DNA of 64,000 nt, taken from NCBI RefSeq assembly GCF_014200395.1, contig NZ_JACHBS010000001.1:186001-250000 (forward strand), written 5' to 3'. Of this stretch, positions 28,784 to 41,566 are shown one piece after another. The notes under the pieces are model-generated. The model was not told the origin of the DNA, searched no databases, and saw only the letters and a program-made list of their open reading frames with translations. The translations under genes and the position numbers were made by a program. The stretch is from Microcella frigidaquae (GTDB lineage Bacteria; Actinomycetota; Actinomycetes; Actinomycetales; Microbacteriaceae). How positions within the stretch are numbered: position 1 is the first letter of the stretch; each line of letters starts with the position of its first letter.

Positions 28784-30241
28784 ATGAGACGCGCGAAGAT
28801 CGTTGCCACCCTCGGGCCGGCGACATCCAGCTACGAGAACATCCGGGCCATCATCGAGGCGGGCGTCAATGTCGCCCGCATGAACCTCAGCCACGGCAGC
28901 TACGAGGTGCACGAGGAGGTCTACCGCAATGTGCGGCAGGCTGCCGCCGACGCCGACAAGCCCGTGGCGGTGCTCGTCGACCTGCAGGGCCCGAAGATCC
29001 GGCTCGGCAAGTTCGAGAACGGGCCCCACGAGCTCGCCGAGGGCGACATCTTCACGATCACGACCGAGGACGTCCTCGGCACCAAGGAGATCTGCAGCAC
29101 GACCTTCAAGGGCCTGCCCGCCGACGTGAAGCCCGGCGACTTCCTGCTGATCGACGACGGCAAGGTCAAGGTGAAGGTGCTCGACACCGACGGCGTGCGC
29201 GTGCGCACGGAGGTCGTCGTCGCCGGCCCGGTCTCGAACAACAAGGGCATCAACCTGCCGGGTGTCGCCGTCAACGTGCCCGCCCTCTCCGAGAAGGATG
29301 AGGACGACCTGCGCTGGGGCCTGAAGCTCGGAGCCGATTACATCGCCCTGTCGTTCGTGCGCAACGCCTCCGACGTCAACCGCGTGCACGCGATCATGCG
29401 GGAGGAGGGGCGCACCATCCCGGTGATCGCCAAGATCGAGAAGCCGCAGGCGGTGGATGCTCTCGAGGAGATCATCGAGGCCTTCGACGGCATCATGGTG
29501 GCGCGCGGAGACCTCGGCGTCGAGCTGCCGCTCGAGGCCGTGCCGATCGTGCAGAAGCGCGCCGTCGAGCTGGCCCGCCGCATGGCGAAGCCCGTGATCG
29601 TCGCCACGCAGATGCTCGAGTCGATGATCAGCAACCCCATCCCCACGCGAGCGGAGACCTCCGACGTCGCCAACGCCGTCCTCGACGGCGCGGACGCCGT
29701 GATGCTGAGCGGCGAGACGAGCGTGGGGGAGTTCCCCGTGATCACGGTCTCGACCATGGCGCGCATCATCGCCTCGACAGAGGAGCACGGTCTCGAGCGC
29801 ATCCCGCCCCTCGGCACCAAGCCCCGCACGCAGGGCGGTGCGATCACCCTCGCCGCCGCGGAGGTCGCCGACTTCGTCGATGCCAAGTACGTGTGCGTCT
29901 TCACCGAGTCGGGCGACTCGGCGAGGCGCATGTCGCGGCTGCGCTACCGCATCCCGATGAAGGCCTTCACGCCGCTCGAGAGCATCCAGCGCCGCATGTC
30001 GCTGACCTGGGGCATCGAGTCGTTCCTCGTCGACCGCGTCACGCACACCGACGCCATGTACCGCCAGGTCGACGAGGCGCTCCTGCGGGAGGGTCTCGCC
30101 GACGTCGGCGACAAGGTCGTCGTGATCTCCGGCTCGCCTCCCGGCATCCCGGGGTCGACCAACGATCTTCGGGTGCACGTCGTCGGTGACGCGATCAACG
30201 CCGTCGCGCCGGTCTGGCAGAGCGGCGCCAGCGCCGACTGA
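28784..30241 (+). CDS. pyk: Pyruvate kinase
   Basis: Last step of glycolysis: PEP + ADP to pyruvate + ATP. 485 aa. Motifs: KIVATLGPATSSYENI, MNLSHGSYEVHEE, VLVDLQGPKIRLG, the active-site signature IAKIEKPQAVDALEEI (catalytic Lys), and GVELPLEAVPIVQKR, ATQMLESMI. The C-terminal allosteric domain is complete. It is followed convergently by the SIS-domain gene with only 7 bp between stop codons. Confidence 0.97.
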   Translation: MRRAKIVATLGPATSSYENIRAIIEAGVNVARMNLSHGSYEVHEEVYRNVRQAAADADKPVAVLVDLQGPKIRLGKFENGPHELAEGDIFTITTEDVLGTKEICSTTFKGLPADVKPGDFLLIDDGKVKVKVLDTDGVRVRTEVVVAGPVSNNKGINLPGVAVNVPALSEKDEDDLRWGLKLGADYIALSFVRNASDVNRVHAIMREEGRTIPVIAKIEKPQAVDALEEIIEAFDGIMVARGDLGVELPLEAVPIVQKRAVELARRMAKPVIVATQMLESMISNPIPTRAETSDVANAVLDGADAVMLSGETSVGEFPVITVSTMARIIASTEEHGLERIPPLGTKPRTQGGAITLAAAEVADFVDAKYVCVFTESGDSARRMSRLRYRIPMKAFTPLESIQRRMSLTWGIESFLVDRVTHTDAMYRQVDEALLREGLADVGDKVVVISGSPPGIPGSTNDLRVHVVGDAINAVAPVWQSGASAD

Positions 30242-30248
30242 CCGTCGC

Positions 30249-31256
30249 TCAGCCGCCCGCACCTCCGCGGTCGAGGGGCCGGCGCGAGAACCCGAACTCC
30301 GGGTCCTGCGCCAGCCACTCGGCCGCGACCAGCTCGAACGGGAGGGTCTCCACGAGCACGCGCACCCGGTCGTCATGGTCATCCGGGAACCGCAGCGCGA
30401 ACTCGGCGCCCGGGAGCTCGCCCCCGATCGCCGCGAAGCGGGCGCCGCGCGACCGGAGCCACTCCACGGCCTGAGCATCCCAGGCAGACCCGGTGAGAAC
30501 GGCCGCGCGGTAGTCATGGGTGCGGCTCGTGTAGACGTCGACGTGGGCCCAGTCGCCGGTCTCGCATGCCACGGCGAGGCGGCGCGGCAGCTCGCGCACC
30601 ATGAGCGCCGCCTGCTGCGCCGAGCAGAAGCGCTCGGCCGGTGCGAGCACGTGCACTCCATCGCCCGAGTCGAGCACCTGGGCCAGCGCGGGGCGCCAGT
30701 CGGACACCGTGGCCTGGAGCGTCTCGGTGGCGGCGGCGGCGCGGTTCAGCTCGTCGCGCGAGCGCTGACGGTCCGCGAGGCGGAACAGGTGCTCGAGGAC
30801 GACGATCGTGTGGCGGTAGGTGCGGCTGGCGACCCCGCTCGATTCGACGCCCGCTCGGAGGTCGATGACCGCATCGGCGCGCTCGGCGAGCGGACTGGTG
30901 ACCGCGTTGGTGACCGCGATCAGGCGTCCACGCCCGGCGTAGGGCTCGACGGCGGCGAGCACTTCGGCGCTCCGACCCGTGGCTGAGACGGCGACCACCA
31001 CGAGGTCGTCGCTCGGCGGCGGCAGCTGCACCGCGCTCGCCCACTCCGCCACTACTGCTCGGCCCGTCGCGCGGGCCGCGCGCGCCACCCGGTCGGCCGC
31101 GTAGCGGCTCGAGCCCATGCCGAGGATGAGAACGCGTGCCGGTCGCGACGCGCCCAGCACGCTCGCGAGGTCGTCGATCTGGTCGAGCGCACCCGCGAGC
31201 GCGCGGTAGCTCGCCGGGATCGCCGTCAGGTCGTCGGGGAATCGGGTGGTGTCCAC
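30249..31256 (-). CDS. SIS-domain protein, candidate amino-sugar phosphate isomerase/deaminase
   Basis: 335 aa with two sugar-isomerase (SIS) domains and no N-terminal glutaminase domain, so it is not a normal GlmS. The first SIS half shows VLILGMGSSRYAADRVARA and VVVVAVSATGRSAEVL (phosphosugar-binding loop); the second half starts near CSAQQAALMVRELPRRLA. Such proteins isomerise or deaminate phosphorylated (amino)sugars. The GTG start overlaps the end of the upstream kinase gene by 31 bp, so the two are coupled. If the kinase makes glucosamine 6-phosphate, this protein could convert it to fructose 6-phosphate; that substrate assignment is inference. Confidence 0.75.
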   Translation of the reverse strand: MDTTRFPDDLTAIPASYRALAGALDQIDDLASVLGASRPARVLILGMGSSRYAADRVARAARATGRAVVAEWASAVQLPPPSDDLVVVAVSATGRSAEVLAAVEPYAGRGRLIAVTNAVTSPLAERADAVIDLRAGVESSGVASRTYRHTIVVLEHLFRLADRQRSRDELNRAAAATETLQATVSDWRPALAQVLDSGDGVHVLAPAERFCSAQQAALMVRELPRRLAVACETGDWAHVDVYTSRTHDYRAAVLTGSAWDAQAVEWLRSRGARFAAIGGELPGAEFALRFPDDHDDRVRVLVETLPFELVAAEWLAQDPEFGFSRRPLDRGGAGG

Positions 31257-32461
31257 GGGGGGTCCTCCAGCTCGGGATCGGGGTCGAAGCGGTGGGTGAT
31301 CGCCCAGTCGGCCGCATAGCGCCAGCGGGGGAGGTACCGCTCGGCGTACGCGACCTCGCGCAGCAGCTGCTGGGCCTCGAGCGCCGGCAGGCGCCGCTCG
31401 TCGAGAAGCGGAGCTCCGGCCAGGTGGGGGGAGACGTCCCGGTACCCGGCGAGCAGGTCGTGCCGCGCGTGGTCCGCCCACGCGCGGATCGCGGGATGAT
31501 CGCCCTGCCGTTTCGCGACGATCGCGCCGACCAGGTCGAGCGACACGAGGAGGTGGGCGACATCGACGGCGGCCTCAGCGGCGTCGGGGTCGAAATCGCC
31601 GAGCGGGTCGCCATCGAAGTCGATCAGCCGCATCGTGCCGGTGGCATCCCGCAGCACCTGTCCGACGTGCAGGTCGCCGTGGATCGCGAATCGTGGCGCG
31701 CGCAGCGCCGGGGCCGCAGCGAGAACTGCGGCCAGTGCGCCCCAGCGTGCTCGCAGACGCAGCGCACCGGCGTCCGTGGCGTCCGGGGGTCCGTCCGCTG
31801 GCGGCGGAAGCGTCGCACCGAGGGGGGCAGCGATCGCTCCCGGTCCGGGTGACCCGCCTGCCGTCGCCTCGGCTGTCGCGTCGGCGAGAGCCGCGTGCAC
31901 CCGGGCGACCAGGCGGCCGAGCTGCCGCGGCCAGGCCGACCGCTGCGACGCCGCGACCGCGGCGCCGGCCTCGTCGACAGCCCACGTCCACCCGTCGACG
32001 CTGTCGGCGTGGAACTGGTGCACGGTCGCCACCGTGGCGCGCCCGTGCGGGGTGTCGAGCTCGAGGGTTCCGTGCAGGAGGGGGAGGACATCCGGGCACC
32101 GCTCGGCGACAGCGCGGGTCACGCGCACGGCGCGATCGCCGTCGCCGAGCCGCCCGACCACCTTCACGATCAGGCGCTCGTCCACCACGACGTTCCAGTT
32201 CGTCATGTCGATGCCGGCGCCGAGCCCGCGCTCGTGCCCGACGACCGTGCCGGGCGCCGCGTCGACGGTGCGCCGCACGCCGGGCGGCAGGGGAGAGCCG
32301 GAGAGCAGCCGCGCGAGTTCCGCGGCGATGCCATCGCCGGCCTGCGCGGGCTCTCCGTTCCGGGTGAGGATCCGCACCCGCTGCCCCGGGCCCCAGTGCA
32401 CCGTCCCCGCCGAGAGCGCGAGCTCGAGCTCGATCGCGGCGTCCTCGGGTGACGAATTCAT
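31226..32461 (-). CDS. Aminoglycoside phosphotransferase/maltokinase-fold kinase, candidate glucosamine kinase
   Basis: 411 aa. The kinase core has the ATP-site Lys (LIVKVVGRL, K100), the catalytic loop HGDLHVGQ (261-268) and the metal-binding DFDGDP (281-286). The ~90-residue N-terminal cap region before it is the architecture of maltokinase and of actinobacterial glucosamine kinases rather than of antibiotic phosphotransferases. Coupling to a SIS-domain gene supports an amino-sugar substrate, but the substrate is not proven by the sequence. Residues ~195-235 are a low-complexity Ala/Pro/Gly linker. It is transcribed divergently from potD; an inverted repeat lies 8 bp upstream of its start. 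Confidence 0.72.
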   Translation of the reverse strand: MNSSPEDAAIELELALSAGTVHWGPGQRVRILTRNGEPAQAGDGIAAELARLLSGSPLPPGVRRTVDAAPGTVVGHERGLGAGIDMTNWNVVVDERLIVKVVGRLGDGDRAVRVTRAVAERCPDVLPLLHGTLELDTPHGRATVATVHQFHADSVDGWTWAVDEAGAAVAASQRSAWPRQLGRLVARVHAALADATAEATAGGSPGPGAIAAPLGATLPPPADGPPDATDAGALRLRARWGALAAVLAAAPALRAPRFAIHGDLHVGQVLRDATGTMRLIDFDGDPLGDFDPDAAEAAVDVAHLLVSLDLVGAIVAKRQGDHPAIRAWADHARHDLLAGYRDVSPHLAGAPLLDERRLPALEAQQLLREVAYAERYLPRWRYAADWAITHRFDPDPELEDPPWTPPDSPTT

Positions 32462-32468
32462 TGAACCC

Positions 32469-32483
32469 CAATTGAAACAATTG
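32469..32483. promoter_or_regulatory. Inverted repeat CAATTG-AAA-CAATTG, candidate operator
   Basis: A perfect 6-3-6 palindrome in the 125-bp divergent region between the kinase gene and potD, strikingly AT-rich for this genome. It ends 23 bp upstream of the potD -10 box, touching its -35 region, and lies 8-22 bp upstream of the kinase start codon. One bound regulator could control both directions; the TetR protein at 36404 is a candidate. Confidence 0.5.
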
Positions 32484-32519
32484 TGTTACAGCTCGCAAGT
32501 GCGCCCTATCCTGCCATTG
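32481..32519 (+). promoter_or_regulatory. Promoter of potD
   Basis: TATCCT at 32507-32512 is a good -10. The -35 is weak: GTTACA at 32485-32490 gives 16-bp spacing, TTGTGT at 32481-32486 gives 20. The leader to ATG 32587 would be about 68 nt and carries AAGGAGG at 32576-32582. Confidence 0.5.
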
Positions 32520-32586
32520 TCGGGTGTTGCGCCGTGGTGCAAGAATCTCCGAAACCCGATCCGGGACCATCGTGCAAGGAGGCACC

Positions 32587-33675
32587 ATGCGCACCAGACG
32601 CTCCGCCCACGCCGTACTCGCCCTCGCCGCCGTCGCCGTTCTGACGGCCTGCGCCAGCGGAACCGCGACCGACCCGATCGACCCCGATGCCGACATCACC
32701 GAGCAGACGCTCACCGTCAGCATCTGGGCCGACTACTATCCGGCAGACCTGGCCGAGCGCTTCGAGGCCGAGACCGGGGTGCCGGTGACGATCGTCAACC
32801 ACACCACCAACGAGGACGTCATGGCGAAGCTCACGACCGGCGCCGACTCCGGTATCGACGTCGCCTTCGTCTCGGGGCAGTACGCCCAGGCGCTGGCCGA
32901 GCAGGGCCTGCTCGCCGAGCTGGAGAAGTCGCTCATCCCCAATGAGTCGAACCTCTACCCCGAAGCGAGCGAGCTCGCCTACGACCCGGGCAACGTCTAC
33001 TCGCTCCCGTACGCGTGGGGCACCACGGGGCTCTGCTACCGCACCGATCTGCTCGACTTCGAGCCGACCTCGTGGGGTGACCTGCTGAATCCCGCTCCGG
33101 AGGTCGCCGGCACGACCACCATGCTGGCCACCGAACGCTGGATGACCCTGCCGGCCCAGAAGTTCCTCGGATTCTCGATCAACACCACCGACCCCGACGA
33201 GCTCGCGCAGATCCGCGCCCAGCTCGAGGCCACGAAGCCCACGCTGCTGGCGTTCGACGACACGACGTTCTACGAGAAGGTCGTCACCGGCGAGGCCACG
33301 ATGGTGCAGGCCTGGGACGGCTGGTGCAACTACGGCATCGCCGAAGACCCGAACATCAGCTTCGTGCTGCCCGAGGAGGGCAGCGACCTCTGGGTCGACA
33401 CCATGACGGTGCTGGCCTCGAGCCCCAACAAGGAGGCCGCGATGGCCTTCCTCAACTTCATCCTGGAGCCCGAGATCCACGGCTGGGTCGCCGAAAACAT
33501 CCTCTACAAGGTGCCGAACGCCCCCGCCATGGAGGCCCTCGACCCCTCGATCATCGACGCGTTCCCGAACATGGGCATCACGCCCGCTGAGCTGCTCGAG
33601 CAGGAGGTCGCCATCGACCTCGGAGAGTTCACCGTCGAGTACTCCCGACTGGTCACCGAGATCCAGGCGGGCTGA
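32587..33675 (+). CDS. potD: Polyamine ABC transporter substrate-binding lipoprotein (PotD-like)
   Basis: 362 aa extracellular lipoprotein: basic n-region, hydrophobic stretch and lipobox LTAC with Cys22. Residues that bind spermidine/putrescine in E. coli PotD have equivalents: W47 and Y50 (SIWADYYP; PotD W34/Y37), W243 (QAWDGW; W229) and W269/D271 (LWVDTM; W255/D257). These alignments are by eye. It thus probably binds a polyamine. ATG 32587 is chosen for the signal peptide and AAGGAGG 4 nt upstream; it heads a four-gene importer followed by an amine oxidase and an aldehyde dehydrogenase. Confidence 0.88.
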   Translation: MRTRRSAHAVLALAAVAVLTACASGTATDPIDPDADITEQTLTVSIWADYYPADLAERFEAETGVPVTIVNHTTNEDVMAKLTTGADSGIDVAFVSGQYAQALAEQGLLAELEKSLIPNESNLYPEASELAYDPGNVYSLPYAWGTTGLCYRTDLLDFEPTSWGDLLNPAPEVAGTTTMLATERWMTLPAQKFLGFSINTTDPDELAQIRAQLEATKPTLLAFDDTTFYEKVVTGEATMVQAWDGWCNYGIAEDPNISFVLPEEGSDLWVDTMTVLASSPNKEAAMAFLNFILEPEIHGWVAENILYKVPNAPAMEALDPSIIDAFPNMGITPAELLEQEVAIDLGEFTVEYSRLVTEIQAG

Positions 33676-33683
33676 TCCGCCGG

Positions 33684-34592
33684 ATGTCGGTCGCTGCGAC
33701 CACGCCGGCCCGCGGCGGGACGAGCATGCGCTCGTCCCGCCGCTGGGCGGCAGCCGCACTGCTGGGCCCGGGGTCTGTGTATCTCGCGCTCTTCTTCCTC
33801 GTACCGCTCGGCCTCATCGTCGTCTACGCCTTCCTGACCCGTGGGCGGTTCGGCGGTGTGCTGCCCGAGGTCACCCTCGACAACTTCGCCCGCCTGCTGG
33901 AGCCGGTCTACGTGCAGGTGATCGGCACCTCGGTGGGCACCGCCGCCCTCACGACGCTGCTCGCGCTGGTGCTGGGGTTCCCCACCGCGTACGTGATCTC
34001 GCGGTTGCCGAGCCGGTGGCGGGTGACGGCTCTGGTCCTGGTGCTGCTGCCGTTCTGGACGAACTTCCTGATCCGCACCTACGCCTGGATCATCCTCCTG
34101 AACGACGCCGGCTGGATCAACGGCTCGCTCCTCGCCCTCGGACTCATCGACGACCCGATCCGGATGCTGTACACGCAGCCCGCGGTGATCACCGGCCTGC
34201 TCTACATCTACCTGCCGCTCATGATCCTCCCGCTGTACTCCGCGATCGAGCGCATCGACCCCGCGCTCGAGGAGGCTGCGACCAACCTCGGCGCGTCGCG
34301 CTGGCGGGTGTTCCGCACGATCACCATTCCGCTGGCGCTCCCGGGCATGCTCATCGGCAGCGTGTTCGTGTTCGTCCCGTCCATGGCGAACTTCGTCATC
34401 CCCGAGCTGATCGGCGGGGGGAAGAGCCTCCTGCTCGGCAATCTCATCCGCGACCAGTTCCTCAAGGCACGCGACTGGCCGTTCGGCGCCGCCCTCGCGC
34501 TCATCCTCGTCGCGATCCTCGTGCTGCTCCTCTTCCTGCAGGCGCGCGCAACCTCCCGCATGGAAGGAGGGCGCTCCCGTGCGCGTCCCTAG
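33684..34592 (+). CDS. potB: Polyamine ABC transporter permease (PotB-like)
   Basis: 302 aa binding-protein-dependent inner-membrane permease with six hydrophobic segments; first one YLALFFLVPLGLIVVYAF. The EAA loop that docks onto the ATPase is EEAATNLGASRWRVFRTITIPLALPG. ATG 33684 lies 8 bp after the potD stop. An alternative ATG at 33726 (MRSSRRWAAAALL) sits in the loop of a perfect 14-bp hairpin and would also give a plausible N-terminus; the choice is open. Confidence 0.88.
   Translation: MSVAATTPARGGTSMRSSRRWAAAALLGPGSVYLALFFLVPLGLIVVYAFLTRGRFGGVLPEVTLDNFARLLEPVYVQVIGTSVGTAALTTLLALVLGFPTAYVISRLPSRWRVTALVLVLLPFWTNFLIRTYAWIILLNDAGWINGSLLALGLIDDPIRMLYTQPAVITGLLYIYLPLMILPLYSAIERIDPALEEAATNLGASRWRVFRTITIPLALPGMLIGSVFVFVPSMANFVIPELIGGGKSLLLGNLIRDQFLKARDWPFGAALALILVAILVLLLFLQARATSRMEGGRSRARP
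33712..33743 (+). other. Perfect 14-bp hairpin at the potD-potB junction
   Basis: GCGGCGGGACGAGC (33712-33725), loop ATGC (33726-33729), GCTCGTCCCGCCGC (33730-33743). All 14 pairs are perfect. The loop contains an in-frame ATG of potB. It starts 37 nt after the potD stop. It may stabilise the 3' end of potD mRNA, attenuate transcription into the permeases or hide the alternative start. Confidence 0.75.
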
Positions 34593-35349
34593 AGCCTTCC
34601 TCGTGCCCTTCTGGGCGACGTTCGTCTTCCTCTACATCCCGATCGTCGTGGTCGTCATCATGTCGTTCAACGCGTCCTCGAGCCTGTTCGTGTGGCGGGG
34701 CTTCTCCTTCGACTGGTACGTCGAGGTGTTCCGCGACGGCGCGCTGATGGCCGGGCTCGGCAACACCCTCATCGTGGCGAGCGGTTCCACCCTTCTCGCG
34801 ACGGTACTCGGCACGCTGCTCGCGGTGGGGATCAGCCGCTACACCCGGTCTGGTCTGGTGCGCGCGTTCGCGATCGCCCCGGCGCTCCTGCCCGACCTGC
34901 TTCTCGCCATCGGCCTGCTCAGCCTCTTCGGCCTCGTGCAGCTCACCCTGGGGCTGCACTCGGTGCTGATCGCGCACGCGGTGTTCTCGATGGCCTTCGT
35001 GACGGCGATCGTGCTCGCACGGCTTTCGCATGTCGACCCCAGCCTGGAGGAGGCCTCCCGCGATCTCGGCGCCGGACCGCTGCGCACGCTCCTGCGCGTC
35101 ACCATCCCGCAGCTCGCGCCGGGGATCGTCGCCGGGGCGCTCCTGGCCTTCACGCTGTCGCTCGACGAGTTCGTGATCGCTTTCTTCACCGCCGCCCCCA
35201 ACGCCCCGACACTGCCGATGGTCATCTACTCGATGGTGCGCTTCGGCGTGACCCCGGAGGTGAATGCTCTCGCCACGATGCTGCTCGGCGTGAGCATGCT
35301 CGCCATCATCGCCACGCAGCGCCTCACCCGCATCACGGAGTCCCTATGA
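34579..35349 (+). CDS. potC: Polyamine ABC transporter permease (PotC-like)
   Basis: 256 aa permease with six membrane segments (first FLYIPIVVVVIMSF). The EAA loop is LEEASRDLGAGPLRTLLRVTIPQLAPG, followed by FTLSLDEFVIAFF, characteristic of PotC/YdcV-type permeases. GTG 34579 has GGAGG a few bases upstream and overlaps the end of potB by 14 nt; its stop overlaps the potA ATG. Confidence 0.9.
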   Translation: MRVPRAFLVPFWATFVFLYIPIVVVVIMSFNASSSLFVWRGFSFDWYVEVFRDGALMAGLGNTLIVASGSTLLATVLGTLLAVGISRYTRSGLVRAFAIAPALLPDLLLAIGLLSLFGLVQLTLGLHSVLIAHAVFSMAFVTAIVLARLSHVDPSLEEASRDLGAGPLRTLLRVTIPQLAPGIVAGALLAFTLSLDEFVIAFFTAAPNAPTLPMVIYSMVRFGVTPEVNALATMLLGVSMLAIIATQRLTRITESL

Positions 35350-36425
35350 GCCCCGCGCCGTTGCTGTCGATCCGCAATCTCCGCCACCGCTACGGCGAGA
35401 CCACGGCGCTCGACGATGTGTCGATCGACATCGGCGAGAACGAGTTCTTCGCGCTGCTCGGCCCCTCCGGGTGCGGCAAGACGACGCTGCTGCGTGCGAT
35501 CGCCGGTTTCGAGCATCCGCACGAGGGGGAGATCTTCCTCGACGGACGCTCGCTGCTCGACGTGCCCGCCAATCGCCGACCCATCAATCTCATGTTCCAG
35601 TCGTACGCGCTCTTCCCGCACATGTCGGTCGAGCGCAACATCGCCTACGGCCTCGAGTCGGAGGGGCTCCCGCGGGCGGAGGTCCGCGCCCGCGTCGAGG
35701 AGGTGATCGAGACGGTCGGTCTCGGGTCTTTCGCCCGGCGTCGGCCGACCGCGCTCAGCGGCGGTCAGCGGCAGCGCGTCGCTCTGGCACGCGCGATCGT
35801 CAAGCGGCCGCGCCTCCTGCTGCTCGACGAGCCGCTCTCGGCCCTCGACCGCCAGGTTCGCGCCGAGATGCAGCTCGAGTTGAAGCGGTTGCAGCATGAG
35901 GTGGGGCTGACGTTCGTCGTCGTCACGCACGATCAGGAGGAGGCCATGTCGATGGCCGACCGCATCGCCGTGCTCGATCACGGGCGCGTGCGGCAGGTCG
36001 ATGCGCCGTCGCAGCTGTACGCGAACCCGGCCGACCTGTTCGTCGCCGCGTTCATCGGCACCTCGACGCGCTTCGCGGGCACGCTCACCGCGACGGGTAT
36101 CGACACCGCGTTCGGCGCGGTGCCCGGCGATCATTCGGGCGCGGTTGGAGAGCCGGGCGCGCTGGTCGTGCGCCCGGAGGATGTGCACCTCGGGCCGGTC
36201 GGCTCCGGCCGTGTCGATGGGGTCGTCATCGACACGACCTTCCACGGCGGCGCGTCGAGCGTGCGCCTCGAGCTCGACGGCGGCCTCGGCGTGCTCACCG
36301 GCACGGTGCACGCCGATCGGCTTCCCGCTCGGGGTGAGCGGCTCGGTGCCGACTGGTCGGCCGAGCGGGCAAGGATCGTCGCGGTCGAGCCCGCGCCGAC
36401 CGCTCAGGGGGCGGTGAGCGGATGA
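35346..36425 (+). CDS. potA: Polyamine ABC transporter ATP-binding protein (PotA-like)
   Basis: 359 aa ATPase that drives the importer. Walker A GPSGCGKTT, Q-loop MFQSYALFPH, signature LSGGQRQRVALARAI, Walker B LLLLDEPLSALD, H-loop VVVTHDQEEA. The C-terminal ~110 residues form a TOBE-like domain (GALVVRPEDVHLGP). ATG overlaps the potC stop by 4 nt. The 3' end overlaps the convergent TetR gene by 22 bp. Confidence 0.93.
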   Translation: MSPAPLLSIRNLRHRYGETTALDDVSIDIGENEFFALLGPSGCGKTTLLRAIAGFEHPHEGEIFLDGRSLLDVPANRRPINLMFQSYALFPHMSVERNIAYGLESEGLPRAEVRARVEEVIETVGLGSFARRRPTALSGGQRQRVALARAIVKRPRLLLLDEPLSALDRQVRAEMQLELKRLQHEVGLTFVVVTHDQEEAMSMADRIAVLDHGRVRQVDAPSQLYANPADLFVAAFIGTSTRFAGTLTATGIDTAFGAVPGDHSGAVGEPGALVVRPEDVHLGPVGSGRVDGVVIDTTFHGGASSVRLELDGGLGVLTGTVHADRLPARGERLGADWSAERARIVAVEPAPTAQGAVSG

Positions 36426-37015
36426 CCGGTCGCGAGCCGCGCGTAGTCGAGCAGCAGCTCCGCCGCCTCGTCGTGGCCGATCGACGGGTGGCGCGCCACG
36501 ATGCGGTAGCCGTAGGCGTCCTCGAGGGCCACGAGATTGCGCGCGATGCGCAGCGACGGGCCCTGCAGGGCGAACAGGCCACGAGCGGCGCCCTGCTCGA
36601 GCACCGCCTGGTACATGGTGACCTGACGGTCGTAGAGCGTCGTGAGCAGGGCGGCGAGCACCGGGTTGCGACCCGCCGACCCGCCGAGCTCGCACAGCAG
36701 CCGCACCCCGGTGTCCTCCCCGTGCCGGGGGAGTCCGGAGTCGACGAGCGCGCAGAGCCGAACCACGGGATCGTCGGGCAGCGCCTCGATCATCCGGAGG
36801 CGCTCGTCGTAGAAGCGCTCCATGCCGACACGGTTGGCCTCGAGCACCAACTCGTCGATGTCGGGGTAGTAGTACAGCACCGCGCCCGACGTCAGGCCCG
36901 CCTCAGCGGCCACGCGATTGAGCTTGACCCCGTCGGGGCCGCTCTTGAGGATGGCCCGCTGGGTGGCGGCGACGAGCTCGTCGCGCCGCGCATCCTGCCG
37001 CTTCGGTCTCGCCAT
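36404..37015 (-). CDS. TetR-family transcriptional regulator
   Basis: 203 aa. N-terminal helix-turn-helix (~residues 10-55): ELVAATQRAILKSG followed by LNRVAAEAGLTSGAVLYYYP, then a helical ligand domain. The start MARPKRQDARRDEL is chosen over an in-frame ATG 81 bp upstream because the earlier part is non-conserved and Pro/Gly-rich. Its place between the importer and the catabolic genes suggests that it controls both, with a polyamine or its aldehyde product as ligand; this is inference. It is divergent to the glycosyltransferase and convergent with potA. Confidence 0.85.
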   Translation of the reverse strand: MARPKRQDARRDELVAATQRAILKSGPDGVKLNRVAAEAGLTSGAVLYYYPDIDELVLEANRVGMERFYDERLRMIEALPDDPVVRLCALVDSGLPRHGEDTGVRLLCELGGSAGRNPVLAALLTTLYDRQVTMYQAVLEQGAARGLFALQGPSLRIARNLVALEDAYGYRIVARHPSIGHDEAAELLLDYARLATGHPLTAP

Positions 37016-37067
37016 CCTCGCCGCCTCCCGACCCGCCCCCGCCGGCGATCCCGGCGACGGGCACTCC

Positions 37068-37096
37068 ATGATAGGGCGGCACTGCCCGCGAATCAT
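37068..37096. promoter_or_regulatory. Candidate TetR operator and tetR promoter
   Basis: Nested imperfect inverted repeat ATGAT-a-GGGC-ggcact-GCCC-gcga-ATCAT in the 113-bp divergent region. On the minus strand TATCAT (37073-37068) is a reasonable -10 for the TetR gene, which would make this an autoregulatory site. The arms are offset by 3 bp, so the symmetry is imperfect. Confidence 0.35.
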
Positions 37097-37128
37097 CTCG
37101 ACCGCTCCACCACTGAAAGGAACCCCCG

Positions 37129-38424
37129 ATGACGACGCCGCTGACCTTCCTGTTCATGCCCGAGAGCGCATACGGACCGACGAACAACTGCATCGGCATC
37201 GGCAACGAGCTGCGCCGGCGCGGGCACCGTGTGGTGTTCGCGGCGGAGGCCTCCTGGGCCGGCAAGCTCGCCGCGCTGGGGTTCGAGGAGGACCTCGTCG
37301 ACCTCGCCCCGCCCGCTGAGGACGCGGCCGAGCAGGATGCGGGTCAGTTCTGGAAGGACTACATCAACGAGATGAGTCCGCAGTTCCGGCGTTCGACGCT
37401 CGAGCAGCTCGAGACCGTGACCGCGCCCATCTGGCAGGCGCTCATCGACGGAGCGATGTACTGCGAGCCCCAGCTCAAGGCGATCATCGACCGCACGAAG
37501 CCTGACGTGATCATCGAGGACAACGTGCTGACCTTCCCGGCCCTCCTGACCGCCGGTGTGCCCTTCGTGCGCATCGTCTCCTGCAACCCGCTCGAGATCC
37601 GCGGCGACGACATCGCCCCGGTGTTCTCGGGCCTTCCCCAGGAGCCGCGCACTGAGTGGGCCGCCTTCCGCGCAGAGTACGACCGCACCCACCGCCCGAT
37701 GTGGGAGGGCTTCTCCCGCTGGGTGCAGGAGCAGGGCGCTCCCGCGCTGCCCGATCTGGACTTCATCCACTCGGGCGATCTGAACCTCTACGTCTACCCC
37801 GAGGAGCTCGACTACACCGACGAGCGCCCTCTCGACGAGAGCTGGATCCGCCTCGACTCCTCCGTGCGGCAGACGGATGCGGAGCCGGAGATCCCCGAGG
37901 AGTTCCTGGCGCTGCCCGGCCCGCTCATCTACTTCAGCCTCGGGTCGCTCGGCAGTGCTGACGTCGACCTCATGCGATCGGTGATCGCGGCCCTCGCCGA
38001 CCGTCCGTACCGGGTCATCGTGTCGAAGGGCCCCCGTCACGATGAGATCGAGCTGGCGGGCAACATGTGGGGCGCCGAGTTCCTGCCGCAGACGCGGATC
38101 CTGCCGATGGTCGACCTGGTGATCACGCACGGCGGCAACAACACCACGACGGAGTCGATGCACTTCGGCAAGCCGATGGTGCTCCTGCCGCTGTTCTGGG
38201 ACCAGTACGACAACGCCCAGCGGGTGCACGAGAAGGGGTACGGACGGCGCTTGTCGACCTACGGCTTCACCCCGGAGGAGCTGCGGGCGGCGATCGACGA
38301 GCAGCTCGGCGATGCTGGGCACCTCGCGAAGCTCCGCGCCGCCGGCGAGTCGATCAGGGCTCGTTCCGGCCTCCAGCAGGCCGCCGACCGCCTCGAGGCG
38401 CTCGGTCGGGAGCGCGCTCGGTGA
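37129..38424 (+). CDS. GT1-family glycosyltransferase (UGT/MGT-like) in polyamine cluster
   Basis: 431 aa GT-B fold enzyme. The C-terminal nucleotide-sugar motif is clear: H334GGNNTTTESMHFGKP and LLPLFWDQYDNAQR; the N-terminal acceptor domain starts PLTFLFMPESAYGPTNNCIGIGNEL. Such enzymes transfer a sugar from UDP- or dTDP-sugar to small molecules. The acceptor is unknown. GAAAGGA lies about 8 nt before the ATG and the stop overlaps the start of the amine oxidase (GTGA at 38421-38424), so it is co-translated with polyamine catabolism genes, an unusual neighbourhood for this family. Confidence 0.85.
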   Translation: MTTPLTFLFMPESAYGPTNNCIGIGNELRRRGHRVVFAAEASWAGKLAALGFEEDLVDLAPPAEDAAEQDAGQFWKDYINEMSPQFRRSTLEQLETVTAPIWQALIDGAMYCEPQLKAIIDRTKPDVIIEDNVLTFPALLTAGVPFVRIVSCNPLEIRGDDIAPVFSGLPQEPRTEWAAFRAEYDRTHRPMWEGFSRWVQEQGAPALPDLDFIHSGDLNLYVYPEELDYTDERPLDESWIRLDSSVRQTDAEPEIPEEFLALPGPLIYFSLGSLGSADVDLMRSVIAALADRPYRVIVSKGPRHDEIELAGNMWGAEFLPQTRILPMVDLVITHGGNNTTTESMHFGKPMVLLPLFWDQYDNAQRVHEKGYGRRLSTYGFTPEELRAAIDEQLGDAGHLAKLRAAGESIRARSGLQQAADRLEALGRERAR

Positions 38425-39824
38425 GCACGCCCCTCCCGGCGTCCCTCCGCGACGCGGTCCGGGCCCCGTACTGGCTCGACCGACCGGAGGCGCCGGGACG
38501 CCGTTCGCCGGTGGAGGACGGTGCCGAGTGCGACCTCCTCATCGTCGGTGCCGGGTTCACCGGCCTCTGGCTCGCGTGGCGCGCTCTCGACCGGGAGCCG
38601 GGCAGGTCAGTGCTCGTGCTCGATGCGGAGACCGTGGGGCACGGTGCGACCGGCCGCAACGGCGGCTTCGTCTCGGCTTCGCTCACCCACGGCTACGCCC
38701 ATGGCGAGGCGCTGTGGCCGCGTGACATGCCCGCGATCAGCGCCGAGGGTGCGGCGAATCTCGCCGGCATCGCCGCCGATCTCGCGGCCGCGGGCATCGA
38801 GTGCGACTTCCGCCACGTGGGCAAGACGACCGTCGCCGTCGAGCCCTGGCAGGTCGACGCTCTGCGCACGACCCTCGAGCTCGCCTCGCGCTACGGCGAG
38901 ACGGTCGAGTGGCAGGACCGCGAGCAGGTCCAGGCCGACGTCCACTCGCCGACCTATCTGGCGGGAGTGCGTGATCGCACGGGCAACGCGCTGGTCGACC
39001 CGGCTCTCATGGCGTGGGGCATGGCGGCGCACGTGGAGCGACGCGGTGCGGTCATCCACGACGACAGCCGGGTCGAGCGGTTCTCGCGCACGGGGGCCGG
39101 CGTGATCGCGCACGTCGCCGGCGGACGACGAGTGCGGGCCCGACAGGCCGTCGTCGCGACCTCCGCCTACCGCTCGCCTCTGGCTCGGCTCGGCGGCTAC
39201 ATCATGCCGCTCTACGACCACGTACTGATGACGGAGCCGCTCACCGCCGAGCAGCGCGCCTCCATCGGCTGGAGCGAAGGGCAGGGGCTGACCGACGCGG
39301 GCAACCAGTTTCACTACTACCGGCCGACCGCCGACGGCCGCATCCTGTGGGGAGGGTGGGACGCCGTCTACCACCGCGGCGGCCGGCTCTCGGAGGACCT
39401 CGCGTACGCGGGCGGCTCCCACGCCCTCCTCGCCAGGCAGTTCGTCGAGACGTTCCCGACGCTGCGCGACGTGCGCTTCAGCCACATGTGGGCCGGGCCG
39501 ATCGATTCCACGACCCGGTTCACCGCCGCCTACGGAACCGCGCTGGGGGGCCGGGTGGGGTACGCGATCGGGCACACCGGGCTCGGGGTCGGTGCTGCGC
39601 GCTTCTCGGCCGATGTCGCTCTCGATCTCCTCGAGCGGGCCGACACGCCGCGCGTGCGCTACGGCATCGTCCGCCGCCGTCCGGTGCCCATCCCGCCCGA
39701 GCCCTTCCGCAATCCCGTCATCCAGTTCACACGACGTTCCATCATCGCGGCCGACGCTCGCGGCGGACGGCGCAACCTCTGGCTGCGCACCCTCGACCGC
39801 TTCGGCCTCGGCTTCAACTCCTGA
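38421..39824 (+). CDS. FAD-dependent amine oxidase, gamma-glutamylputrescine oxidase-like
   Basis: 467 aa member of the DAO family. FAD loop LLIVGAGFTGLWLAWRAL (GxGxxG at 43-48), the second FAD contact GATGRNGGF, and the C-terminal GRVGYAIGHTGLGVG closing motif. The layout resembles E. coli PuuB, which oxidises gamma-glutamylputrescine to the aldehyde. No gamma-glutamylputrescine synthetase (PuuA) gene lies nearby, so the actual substrate may be a free or differently modified amine. GTG start overlaps the glycosyltransferase stop. Confidence 0.82.
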   Translation: MSTPLPASLRDAVRAPYWLDRPEAPGRRSPVEDGAECDLLIVGAGFTGLWLAWRALDREPGRSVLVLDAETVGHGATGRNGGFVSASLTHGYAHGEALWPRDMPAISAEGAANLAGIAADLAAAGIECDFRHVGKTTVAVEPWQVDALRTTLELASRYGETVEWQDREQVQADVHSPTYLAGVRDRTGNALVDPALMAWGMAAHVERRGAVIHDDSRVERFSRTGAGVIAHVAGGRRVRARQAVVATSAYRSPLARLGGYIMPLYDHVLMTEPLTAEQRASIGWSEGQGLTDAGNQFHYYRPTADGRILWGGWDAVYHRGGRLSEDLAYAGGSHALLARQFVETFPTLRDVRFSHMWAGPIDSTTRFTAAYGTALGGRVGYAIGHTGLGVGAARFSADVALDLLERADTPRVRYGIVRRRPVPIPPEPFRNPVIQFTRRSIIAADARGGRRNLWLRTLDRFGLGFNS

Positions 39825-39852
39825 TCGAACCGATCTCTCGAGAGGCACCACC

Positions 39853-41313
39853 ATGACGACTCTGTCCACCACCATCGCCGGCGTTCCCGAGCGAGGCAGC
39901 GGCGAGACGATCGAGCTCATCGATCCGGCCACCGGCGAGGTCTCCGACGCGTTCCCGCAGTCCGGTCCCGACCAGGTCGTGCGAGCCGTGGCCGCGGGTC
40001 GGGCAGCGCAGCCCTCCTGGGCGGCGGCGACACCGGCCGTGCGCTCGGCGGCCCTGCTGCGGTGGGCCGATGCGATCGAGGCGGATGCCGACCATCTCGC
40101 AGCGCTCGAGGTCGCCGACACCGGCAAGCCCGTGACGGTCGCTCGCGACGGAGAGCTGCCGTTCGCCGTCGACAATCTGCGATTCTTCGCGGGCGCGGCC
40201 CGCAGTCTCGACGGCACCGGCGCCGGCACCCTCAGTGAGGGCTACACGTCGATCATCACGCGCCGACCGGTCGGTCTCGTCGCCGGCATCACTCCGTGGA
40301 ACTTCCCCCTCATCATGGCGATCTGGAAGGCGGGGCCGGCCCTGGCCGCGGGCAACAGCGTCGTGCTCAAGCCGGCGCCGACCACGCCCCGCACCACCTT
40401 GCGCATCGCCGAGCTGGCGCACCGGGCGGGCCTCCCCGACGGCGTGCTCTCGGTGGTGACCGGGGGAGGCGATGTCGGCGAGGCGCTCGTCCGGCATCCC
40501 CAGGTCGACATGATCAGTGTCACCGGCTCCACCGCGACCGGACGAGCCGTCATGGCGGGCGCGGTCGAGAGGGTCAAGCGTGTGCACCTCGAGCTCGGCG
40601 GTAAAGCGCCGGTGCTCGTGTTCGACGATGCCGACATCCCCGCGATGGCGCATGCCGTCGCGCTCGGGGCCACCTACAACTCGGGGCAGGACTGCACGGC
40701 GGCGACGCGGGTCTACGTGCAGCGCGGGGTCTACGACCAGGTGGTGGATGCCCTCCGCGCCTCCCTGGCCGCCATCCGTGTCGGCGACCCCCGCGACGCG
40801 GCGACCGACATCGGGCCCCTCGTCACCGAGCGCCATCGGGCCGCGGTGCGGGGATTCCTCGACCGCGCGACCGCCGAGGGTGCCGAGATCCTCACCGGGG
40901 GGGAGGTGCTCGACCGACCGGGCTTCTACCTGACGCCGGCCCTGGTCGTCGGAGCGCACCAGGGCTCCGAGATCGTGCAGGGCGAGGTCTTCGGCCCGGT
41001 GCTCGTCGTGCTGCCGGTCGACGGCGAGGACGACGCCGTGGCCCACGCCAACGACAGCGCCTACGGGCTGGCCTCGTCGGTCTGGACGGCCGACGTGGCC
41101 CGGGCTCTGCGGGTGAGCGCACGGCTCGATGTGGGCGTCACCTGGGTGAACGATCACCTGCCGATCGCCTCGGAAGCGCCGCACGGCGGGGTGAAGCAGT
41201 CGGGCTTCGGCAAGGACATGAGCATCGAGCCGCTGCTCGAGTACTCGGTGAGCCGCCACCTGATGATCCGGCACGCCCCGCCGCCGGAGACGACCGGCTT
41301 CCGTCCCGCCTAG
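39853..41313 (+). CDS. Aldehyde dehydrogenase, probable gamma-aminobutyraldehyde dehydrogenase
   Basis: 486 aa NAD-dependent ALDH. Active-site Asn150 (GITPWNFPL), general base Glu247 (HLELGGK) and nucleophile Cys281 in YNSGQDCTAATRVYVQ. The GQDCTAA context is the form found in aminobutyraldehyde dehydrogenase (PatD/YdcW) rather than the more common GQxCxA of betaine aldehyde dehydrogenases. With the oxidase upstream it would turn putrescine-derived aldehyde into GABA (or a conjugate). ATG 39853 is chosen because the family N-terminus begins there; the gene is 28 bp after the oxidase. Confidence 0.85.
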   Translation: MTTLSTTIAGVPERGSGETIELIDPATGEVSDAFPQSGPDQVVRAVAAGRAAQPSWAAATPAVRSAALLRWADAIEADADHLAALEVADTGKPVTVARDGELPFAVDNLRFFAGAARSLDGTGAGTLSEGYTSIITRRPVGLVAGITPWNFPLIMAIWKAGPALAAGNSVVLKPAPTTPRTTLRIAELAHRAGLPDGVLSVVTGGGDVGEALVRHPQVDMISVTGSTATGRAVMAGAVERVKRVHLELGGKAPVLVFDDADIPAMAHAVALGATYNSGQDCTAATRVYVQRGVYDQVVDALRASLAAIRVGDPRDAATDIGPLVTERHRAAVRGFLDRATAEGAEILTGGEVLDRPGFYLTPALVVGAHQGSEIVQGEVFGPVLVVLPVDGEDDAVAHANDSAYGLASSVWTADVARALRVSARLDVGVTWVNDHLPIASEAPHGGVKQSGFGKDMSIEPLLEYSVSRHLMIRHAPPPETTGFRPA

Positions 41314-41325
41314 AGCTGAGGAGTC

Positions 41326-41506
41326 CCGGCTGTGGGGGTCGAACCCCGCGACGCTTGGCGTCGGCGCACCGGGAGGTGCTTCGGCCGAGTTCGTGGTGTC
41401 GCGTACCGGCTGTGGGGGTCGAACCCCGCGACGCTTGGCGTCGGCGCACCGGGAGGTGCTTCGGCAGAGATCGTCGTGTCGCGTACCGGCTGTGGGGGTC
41501 GAACCC
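41326..41506 (-). repeat. 80-bp tandem repeats built on the 3' end of tRNA-Leu
   Basis: Two full units (41326-41405 and 41406-41485, 77 of 80 identical) and a third partial 21-bp unit (41486-41506) which is the 3' end of the tRNA-Leu gene itself. On the minus strand each unit begins with the T-loop/acceptor end of the tRNA and contains hairpins GCACC-TCCC-GGTGC and GCGACGC-CAA-GCGTCGC. The extra copies cannot fold into complete tRNAs; only three T-stem pairs remain. The whole array lies directly downstream of the tRNA in its transcription direction. Confidence 0.9.
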
Positions 41507-41566
41507 ACACGTCCTCTCGGACAACGCATTTTGAGTGCGCCGCGTCTGCCATTCCGCCAAGCCGGC
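41484..41566 (-). tRNA. tRNA-Leu(CAA)
   Basis: 83-nt class II tRNA. The acceptor stem GCCGGCT pairs with AGCCGGT (one G-U at the end), discriminator A. The anticodon stem GCGCA/TGCGT encloses loop CTCAAAA, anticodon CAA, reading UUG. A long variable arm (GTCCGAGAGGAC) and T-arm GTGGG-TTCGACC-CCCAC follow. The 3' CCA is not encoded. Confidence 0.96.

Follow-up and report, generated by a model that had tools for sequence, protein, structure and literature searches.

Bacterial polyamine use has been reviewed under five routes, namely gamma-glutamylation, aminotransferase, direct oxidation, spermine/spermidine dehydrogenase and acetylation (2022 review, PMC9397018); the available part of that review names no glycosylation route and holds no word starting with glycosyl or glucosyl. 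In Actinobacteria, a glucosamine kinase gene has been described as tightly associated with a SIS-domain gene and a gene for a GT1 glycosyltransferase (GT) (Manso et al. 2019, PMC6520443). According to the accessible part of that publication, the Km for glucosamine is 8 mM, evidence for the physiological role is lacking and a link with secondary metabolism is suspected; its main text has no word starting with polyamine. The triplet (GlcNK-SIS-GT) is already published, and the amine link is absent from that publication. A literature search covering few subscription papers gave none that joins glucosamine kinase, polyamine and glycosyltransferase, none with glucosylputrescine, and no glycosylated-polyamine route among the matches listed. 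Here we describe a window of 64,000 nucleotides from Microcella frigidaquae (bases 186001-250000 of the 2.55-Mb single-contig genome), in which genes of these three kinds stand with a potDBCA-type transporter, a TetR regulator, an amine oxidase and an aldehyde dehydrogenase (ALDH). The cassette recurs in many relatives, and we tentatively read it as one regulon for the uptake and breakdown of a polyamine-like amine, to which a sugar would be attached and then recovered.

The cassette occupies an 11.2-kb block with ten recognised genes. On the forward strand, potD (32587..33675), potB (33684..34592), potC (34579..35349) and potA (35346..36425) encode a PotD-like substrate-binding lipoprotein whose ligand site is altered, PotB-like and PotC-like permeases and a PotA-like ATPase. 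The gene for a TetR/BetI-like regulator (36404..37096, reverse strand) lies tail to tail with potA and divergent from the GT1-type glycosyltransferase gene (MGT/EryCIII type; 37129..38424, forward), which is followed on the same strand by genes for a DAO-type flavin amine oxidase (38421..39824, GTG start) and an aminobutyraldehyde dehydrogenase of the PatD type (39853..41313). To the left, transcribed divergently from potD, are genes for a glucosamine-kinase-type sugar kinase (31226..32461, reverse) and a SIS-domain phosphosugar protein, GlmS-isomerase/NagB-II-like (30249..31256, reverse), whose start codon lies within the kinase gene. The gene kinds are backed by NCBIfam and Pfam, several of them with scores below curated cut-offs, as for PotB (NF007044, 273.3 bits, cut-off 348), PotC (NF007047, 220.7 bits, cut-off 326) and PotA (TIGR01187, 352.9 bits, cut-off 355.6). 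An earlier sequence-only reading had proposed potDBCA, the TetR, the GT1, the oxidase and the dehydrogenase as a polyamine cluster; when the genes were re-read, all were found at the positions claimed, and the 4-nt GTGA overlap between the GT stop and the GTG start of the oxidase was confirmed. Its left boundary was wrong, as the SIS and kinase genes also belong to the cluster.

A scan of GTDB genomes gave 381 relatives of the GT. The best 80 loci, a choice that favours close relatives, were examined, with gene presence scored by per-gene score cut-offs and identities taken from the best tblastn segment; the kinase and SIS queries were the sequences of the window, L018 and L138, and the last two thus match themselves. 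Enough flank (at least 7.2 kb to the left and 3.8 kb to the right of the middle of the GT) was available in 72 loci, of which 57 hold kinase, SIS, potDBCA, TetR, GT and ALDH together and 18 hold the oxidase. Gene by gene, presence among the 80 loci is 80 for the GT, 72 for tetR, 71 for the kinase, 71 for ALDH, 70 for potA, 70 for potD, 68 for potB, 68 for potC, 65 for SIS and 20 for the oxidase. The GT is the best conserved among the genes for which the window sequence served as query (68-88% identity, mean 72.4%), the other means being 60.8% for potA, 57.8% for potB, 67.0% for potC, 56.8% for potD, 62.6% for tetR, 61.4% for the oxidase and 67.3% for ALDH. As judged from these sequence comparisons, the neighbourhood of the GT is kept beyond chance, and the GT is tied to the transporter, ALDH, kinase and SIS genes more than to the oxidase. 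The GT and the oxidase had been taken as a unit on account of their overlap, with a lack of joint conservation named as counting against the idea; in most of the 80 loci the GT is indeed conserved with the other amine genes and not with the oxidase, and the unit does not survive the comparison of 20 oxidase loci with 71 each for ALDH and kinase. The GT-oxidase pair was rejected as the core of the cassette on the same count.

The main hosts are Agromyces, Nonomuraea, Streptosporangium, Planobispora, Sphaerisporangium, Microtetraspora, Microbispora and allies, with one Leucobacter and one Micromonospora; the closest named GT match is in Microcella pacifica (81%). One locus (L074) has no partner genes beside the GT. 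In another (L034), a potD-GT pair sits between two operons that were judged by eye to be conservon-like. An even sample of the phylum comprised 396 genomes, 37 of them with the GT; 33 loci entered the neighbourhood count, which excluded the window's own locus and the partial matches G194, G234 and G245, and at least one partner gene was found in 18. Gene order is rearranged in this sample: potDBC is divergent in L120 and L121, ALDH is divergent in L127, L129 and L132, and in L138 the pot genes are downstream with kinase-SIS divergent. Kinase-SIS occurs without pot genes in L124, L126, L131 and L144, and DAO oxidases at about 30% identity were found in L135, L136, L137 and L146. Kinase matches (1e-15) were obtained in 19 of the 396 genomes, some in long fused frames; ten of these genomes also have the GT, with the kinase adjoining it in seven. 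A LacI-like regulator, named by eye, recurs beside the GT in the distant Actinomycetota loci L120, L121 and L122, where TetR was not found.

Both divergent promoter regions of the cassette, kinase/potD and tetR/GT, contain the palindrome TTGAA-N6-TTCAA. It was picked by eye in the promoter output and then counted, a post hoc choice; 8-mers common to the two promoter regions were uninformative. The count covers the 59 loci, window included, with all four genes and readable promoter lengths. Exact copies stand on the GT side in 35 loci, on the kinase side in 33 and on both sides in 29, and copies with up to two mismatches occur on both sides in 48 of the 59, against 1.55 expected from dinucleotide shuffles. 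Exact sites number 68 in the promoter regions (25.8 kb) and six in the 1.18-Mb remainder of the same loci, a control that keeps relatedness and not base make-up (A+T being 42% in the promoter regions). In each of the 29 loci with two exact sites, the six-base spacers of the two are not the same. Because the palindrome stands in both promoter regions, the sugar and the amine genes look like one regulon, and the TetR is probably the protein that binds it, which would make it an operator. The putative operator of the window (32461..32476), with one mismatch, is weak compared with the strong sites of relatives, and the Agromyces sites have at least two mismatches each; since the sites of the window and of Agromyces are imperfect, support for the operator is strongest in the Nonomuraea-Sphaerisporangium-Microbispora group.

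Regarding the GT itself, the protein matches PF00201 and PF06722 and has a GT1-type C-terminal domain. Its donor motif, D358 and Q359, which we take to be the usual glucose-contacting pair, is kept in 114 of 114 GT relatives. The score against TIGR01426 (MGT) is 141.9 bits, below the cut-off of 260, and a macrolide-inactivating enzyme, considered as a candidate, is disfavoured in that the GT scores below those family cut-offs. The nearest solved relatives are the spider mite enzymes UGT203A2 (7lvy, 5.6e-73) and UGT202A2 (6pnt, 4.1e-62), far ahead of CalG1 and the macrolide GTs. The spider mite UGT family is said to derive from bacteria, and the actinobacterial GT family may lie near its donor lineage. 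In GT1 enzymes an N-terminal His is the catalytic base, and those without it probably favour amines. At this position 7lvy, 6pnt and CalG1 have GH where the GT has GP; the proline (Pro17) is found in 113 of the 114 relatives, and Glu12 is almost invariant (112/114). The loss of the His fits either an acceptor, for instance an amine, that would not require a strong base, or an alternative base, for which Glu12 is a candidate.

The PotD-like protein scores 157.1 bits against the NCBIfam PotD equivalog, below the cut-off of 582. Alignment of 76 of 77 sequences (one fragment was left out) to E. coli PotD and PotF showed that, among the residues that we take to bind polyamines in PotD, Trp34, Tyr37, Trp229, Trp255, Asp257 and Tyr293 are kept in 76 of 76, and that Asp168 is changed to Thr, Glu171 to Trp and Ser211 to Asp in 75. 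As the aromatic cage and Asp257 are kept and Asp168 and Glu171 are lost, the ligand is probably polyamine-like and not plain spermidine. Among 32 distant genomes with the GT, four (G175, G160, G106 and G022) have PotD matches of at least 50%, each adjoining the GT; in G022 the gene is at the contig end and split in two pieces. A match at 35% in G170 is also near the GT, the other matches (27-33%) are elsewhere, and 12 of the 32 genomes gave no PotD match. By these residues and positions, the PotD that accompanies the GT forms a subtype.

The best solved relative of the kinase is the glucosamine kinase 6hwj (E 2e-30), and the protein matches the signature Q-x2-RE-x2-YA-x3-LP-x-W exactly. The whole signature is present in 49 of 80 relatives, partial sequences included. 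Residue by residue, the signature and pocket positions are kept as Q in 72, E in 74, Y in 74, W in 74 and R in 57 of 75 sequences, Q405 and E409 being those of the pocket. The SIS protein has a GlmS/NagB-II-like fold, with the presumed catalytic Glu and His, at positions taken from GlmS, 16 residues apart; the alternative of a FrlB-type deglycase is weakened, the fold being nearer to GlmS. Paired, the predicted glucosamine kinase-type enzyme and the NagB-II-like SIS protein would be equipped to catabolise glucosamine. With these partners, the shared putative operator and the PotD subtype, the GT can be placed among the conserved genes of an amine cluster, and sugar and amine are linked more strongly than first claimed.

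The oxidase is 28% identical to E. coli PuuB, and two other DAO paralogues of the genome reach 29% and 32%; one of these two shares 42% identity with the oxidase of the cassette. Its best NCBIfam model gives 146 bits, against a cut-off of 633, and a sequence search of the PDB gave no match at 1e-3. A fold search ranked the glycine/sarcosine oxidase family first and fructosyl peptide oxidases lower; the fold does not tell the substrate. The ALDH scores above the cut-off of the subfamily model PRK13473 (641.6, cut-off 615), matches 1wnb and 6c43, and falls below the cut-offs of the equivalog model TIGR03374 (527.1, cut-off 909.3) and of the PuuC model NF007352 (356.3 bits, cut-off 850). The aldehyde had been thought to be protected at one end as in the Puu route; the ALDH, of the free-aminobutyraldehyde type and not PuuC, argues against this.

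The sequence-only reading had also supposed that the GT takes the place of PuuA, and had named a PuuA homologue elsewhere, required for putrescine use, as evidence to the contrary. As it stated, no PuuA lies within the cluster, all four glutamine-synthetase-family genes of the genome being outside the window. By tblastn these are 31%, 30%, 28% and 26% identical to PuuA, and the genes at 31% and 30% are each near a PuuD-like gene (31%, 34%) and a permease-like gene (21%, 25% to PuuP), in loci L005 (C1:2134000-2148000) and L006 (C1:904000-918000). It is the PuuD neighbours, not identity, that mark this PuuA-like pair, because the other two synthetases reach 28% and 26%. A lack of PuuA-like genes in the genome is ruled out by this pair, and replacement of PuuA by the GT loses its footing; of the contrary evidence named in advance, the presence of PuuA-like genes is the part that was found. 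The genome also holds a PuuE-like protein (28%). Given PuuA-, PuuD- and PuuE-like genes and DAO oxidases, the canonical route is plausible beside the cassette. In a further amine locus of the same genome (L165, C1:2403000-2422000), a DAO oxidase stands beside a PuuE-like aminotransferase and an ALDH.

The cassette is a discrete block (30242..41481) reaching from pyk to tRNA-Leu. Two congeners lack the block at this site and lack the GT genome-wide; they align with the window as far as the stop codon of pyk (30241-30242), alignment resumes at position 41482, at tRNA-Leu, and no cassette protein was matched between pyk and tRNA-Leu in either. Since the alignment resumes on both sides with the cassette missing, the block looks like a piece gained or lost whole. 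The GT is present in three of 150 genomes of the host's family, the window's genome included. No integrase was recognised within the block. At its edge, positions 41323-41482 hold two tandem 80-nt copies of the 3' end of the adjoining tRNA gene (41484-41566, minus strand). The pyk-tRNA-Leu interval of the congeners (L176:9441-10522; L177:9696-11946) carries other genes, judged by eye to be a membrane protein and an ATPase-like gene, and is a variable site.

From the gene kinds, linkage, shared palindrome, block behaviour and residue changes seen by comparison, we infer a set of reactions and their order. The ABC transporter would import an amine other than classical spermidine or putrescine. 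The GT would glycosylate this amine or its product, most likely from uridine diphosphate (UDP)-glucose or another UDP-hexose, the amine nitrogen probably being the easiest acceptor for a GT without the catalytic His. The amine oxidase, in the cluster here and presumably encoded elsewhere in most relatives, would make the aldehyde, which the ALDH would oxidise to an amino acid such as gamma-aminobutyrate (GABA). The kinase would phosphorylate the amino sugar left or released, and the SIS protein would convert the product to fructose-6-phosphate and ammonia, back to glycolysis. The sugar may thus serve as a carrier or protecting group that is later taken off. A fuller version, which we consider somewhat unlikely, is that the cassette represents a further kind of amine catabolism, in which sugar and not glutamate is the carrier, a His-less GT1 attaches it, the conjugate is oxidised and a glucosamine kinase with a GlmS-like SIS enzyme releases the nitrogen from the sugar as ammonia; GlcNK-SIS-GT would then be a nitrogen-catabolic module and not a secondary-metabolic one.

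Several observations weigh against this pathway. UDP-glucose would put the amine on C1, yet 2-amino sugars are the substrates of glucosamine kinase and NagB-type enzymes; closing this chemical gap would take a hexosamine donor or a rearrangement. In 60 of the 80 loci no oxidase was found next to the GT, no glycosidase or hydrolase was recognised in the cassette, and PuuA/PuuD-like genes coexist in the same genome. The GT side of the window has no good operator (five mismatches). Among the relatives, six Acrocarpospora/Herbidospora loci (L034, L040, L066, L069, L081, L085) retain only potD beside the GT, three Planotetraspora loci (L055, L062, L084) have kinase, SIS and ALDH without pot genes, four Microtetraspora loci (L011, L021, L036, L037) have no PotD of the cassette type, and the Leucobacter locus (L030) has no ALDH. 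In the phylum sample, 15 of the 33 GT loci show no partners in the fetched stretch, several of the contigs ending early.

The kinase and the NagB-II-like SIS protein, as a ready glucosamine catabolic pair, are both better explained by a nutrient regulon that co-degrades an amine and an amino sugar occurring together, for instance when a glucosaminylated amine is imported or when debris supplies plenty of both. The kinase and SIS protein would degrade glucosamine and the oxidase and ALDH the amine, and the GT would merely cap a toxic intermediate or store an excess; the probably different ligand of the PotD-like protein, in which Asp168 and Glu171 are missing in 75 of 76, is consistent with this. 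Such co-catabolism gives the GT no central part to play, although the GT (72.4%) is better conserved than potD (56.8%), tetR (62.6%) and ALDH (67.3%), and it too has to do without a hydrolase recognised in the cassette. We regard it as unlikely. We think it improbable, in turn, that the GT, kinase and SIS protein build and attach the sugar of a secondary metabolite, following the proposal of Manso et al. (2019), with the polyamine genes feeding a precursor: the published triplet does lie in predicted biosynthetic clusters, as far as the accessible part of PMC6520443 goes, but in the window the triplet stands with genes for uptake and oxidation and an ALDH gene, and the compact pyk-tRNA block is catabolic in make-up. 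No nonribosomal peptide synthetase (NRPS), polyketide synthase (PKS) or cyclodipeptide synthase (CDPS) was noticed by eye among the neighbours in the listed relatives, no family scan having been made.

The PuuA-like (31%, 30%), PuuD-like (31%, 34%) and PuuE-like (28%) proteins of the genome speak for ordinary catabolism of polyamines by gamma-glutamylation, in which PuuA and PuuD would be encoded elsewhere and the GT, kinase and SIS genes would be passengers. Passengers are unlikely to share a palindrome and a gene order across Agromyces, a Micromonospora and many genera that we assign to the Streptosporangiaceae type, and we hold this explanation to be very improbable. The regulon for a sugar-carried amine, which we tentatively prefer, gives the kinase, its SIS partner and the GT a concrete context, amine metabolism, apparently under one TetR. 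Many actinobacteria pair uptake of a polyamine-like amine with one enzyme that attaches a sugar and two that act on amino sugars, a hint that amines may be handled by way of sugars.

Compared with known systems, the cassette has uptake, a DAO-type oxidase and an aldehyde dehydrogenase in common with the Puu pathway (puuPADRCBE of E. coli; GlnA2/GlnA3 in Streptomyces coelicolor). It differs from that pathway in having a GT, a kinase and a SIS protein instead of PuuA and PuuD, and an ALDH nearer to PatD than to PuuC. With the PatA/PatD or direct-oxidation route of putrescine it has the PatD-type aminobutyraldehyde dehydrogenase in common, whereas it has no aminotransferase and carries extra sugar genes. 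Fructosamine catabolism, with a kinase and a FrlB or FraB deglycase, resembles it in idea, as a kinase and a SIS protein would act on a sugar-amine conjugate in both. The spider mite enzymes UGT203A2 and UGT202A2, the closest solved relatives of the GT, retain GH, while the cassette GTs have GP and Glu12. The nearest published likeness is the triplet of Manso et al. (2019; PMC6520443, accessible part), in which the same three gene kinds are tightly associated; the window kinase carries the published signature, and the GT is likened by kind only. That triplet was tied to predicted biosynthetic clusters, whereas the triplet of the window is tied to potDBCA, a TetR, an ALDH and sometimes an oxidase.

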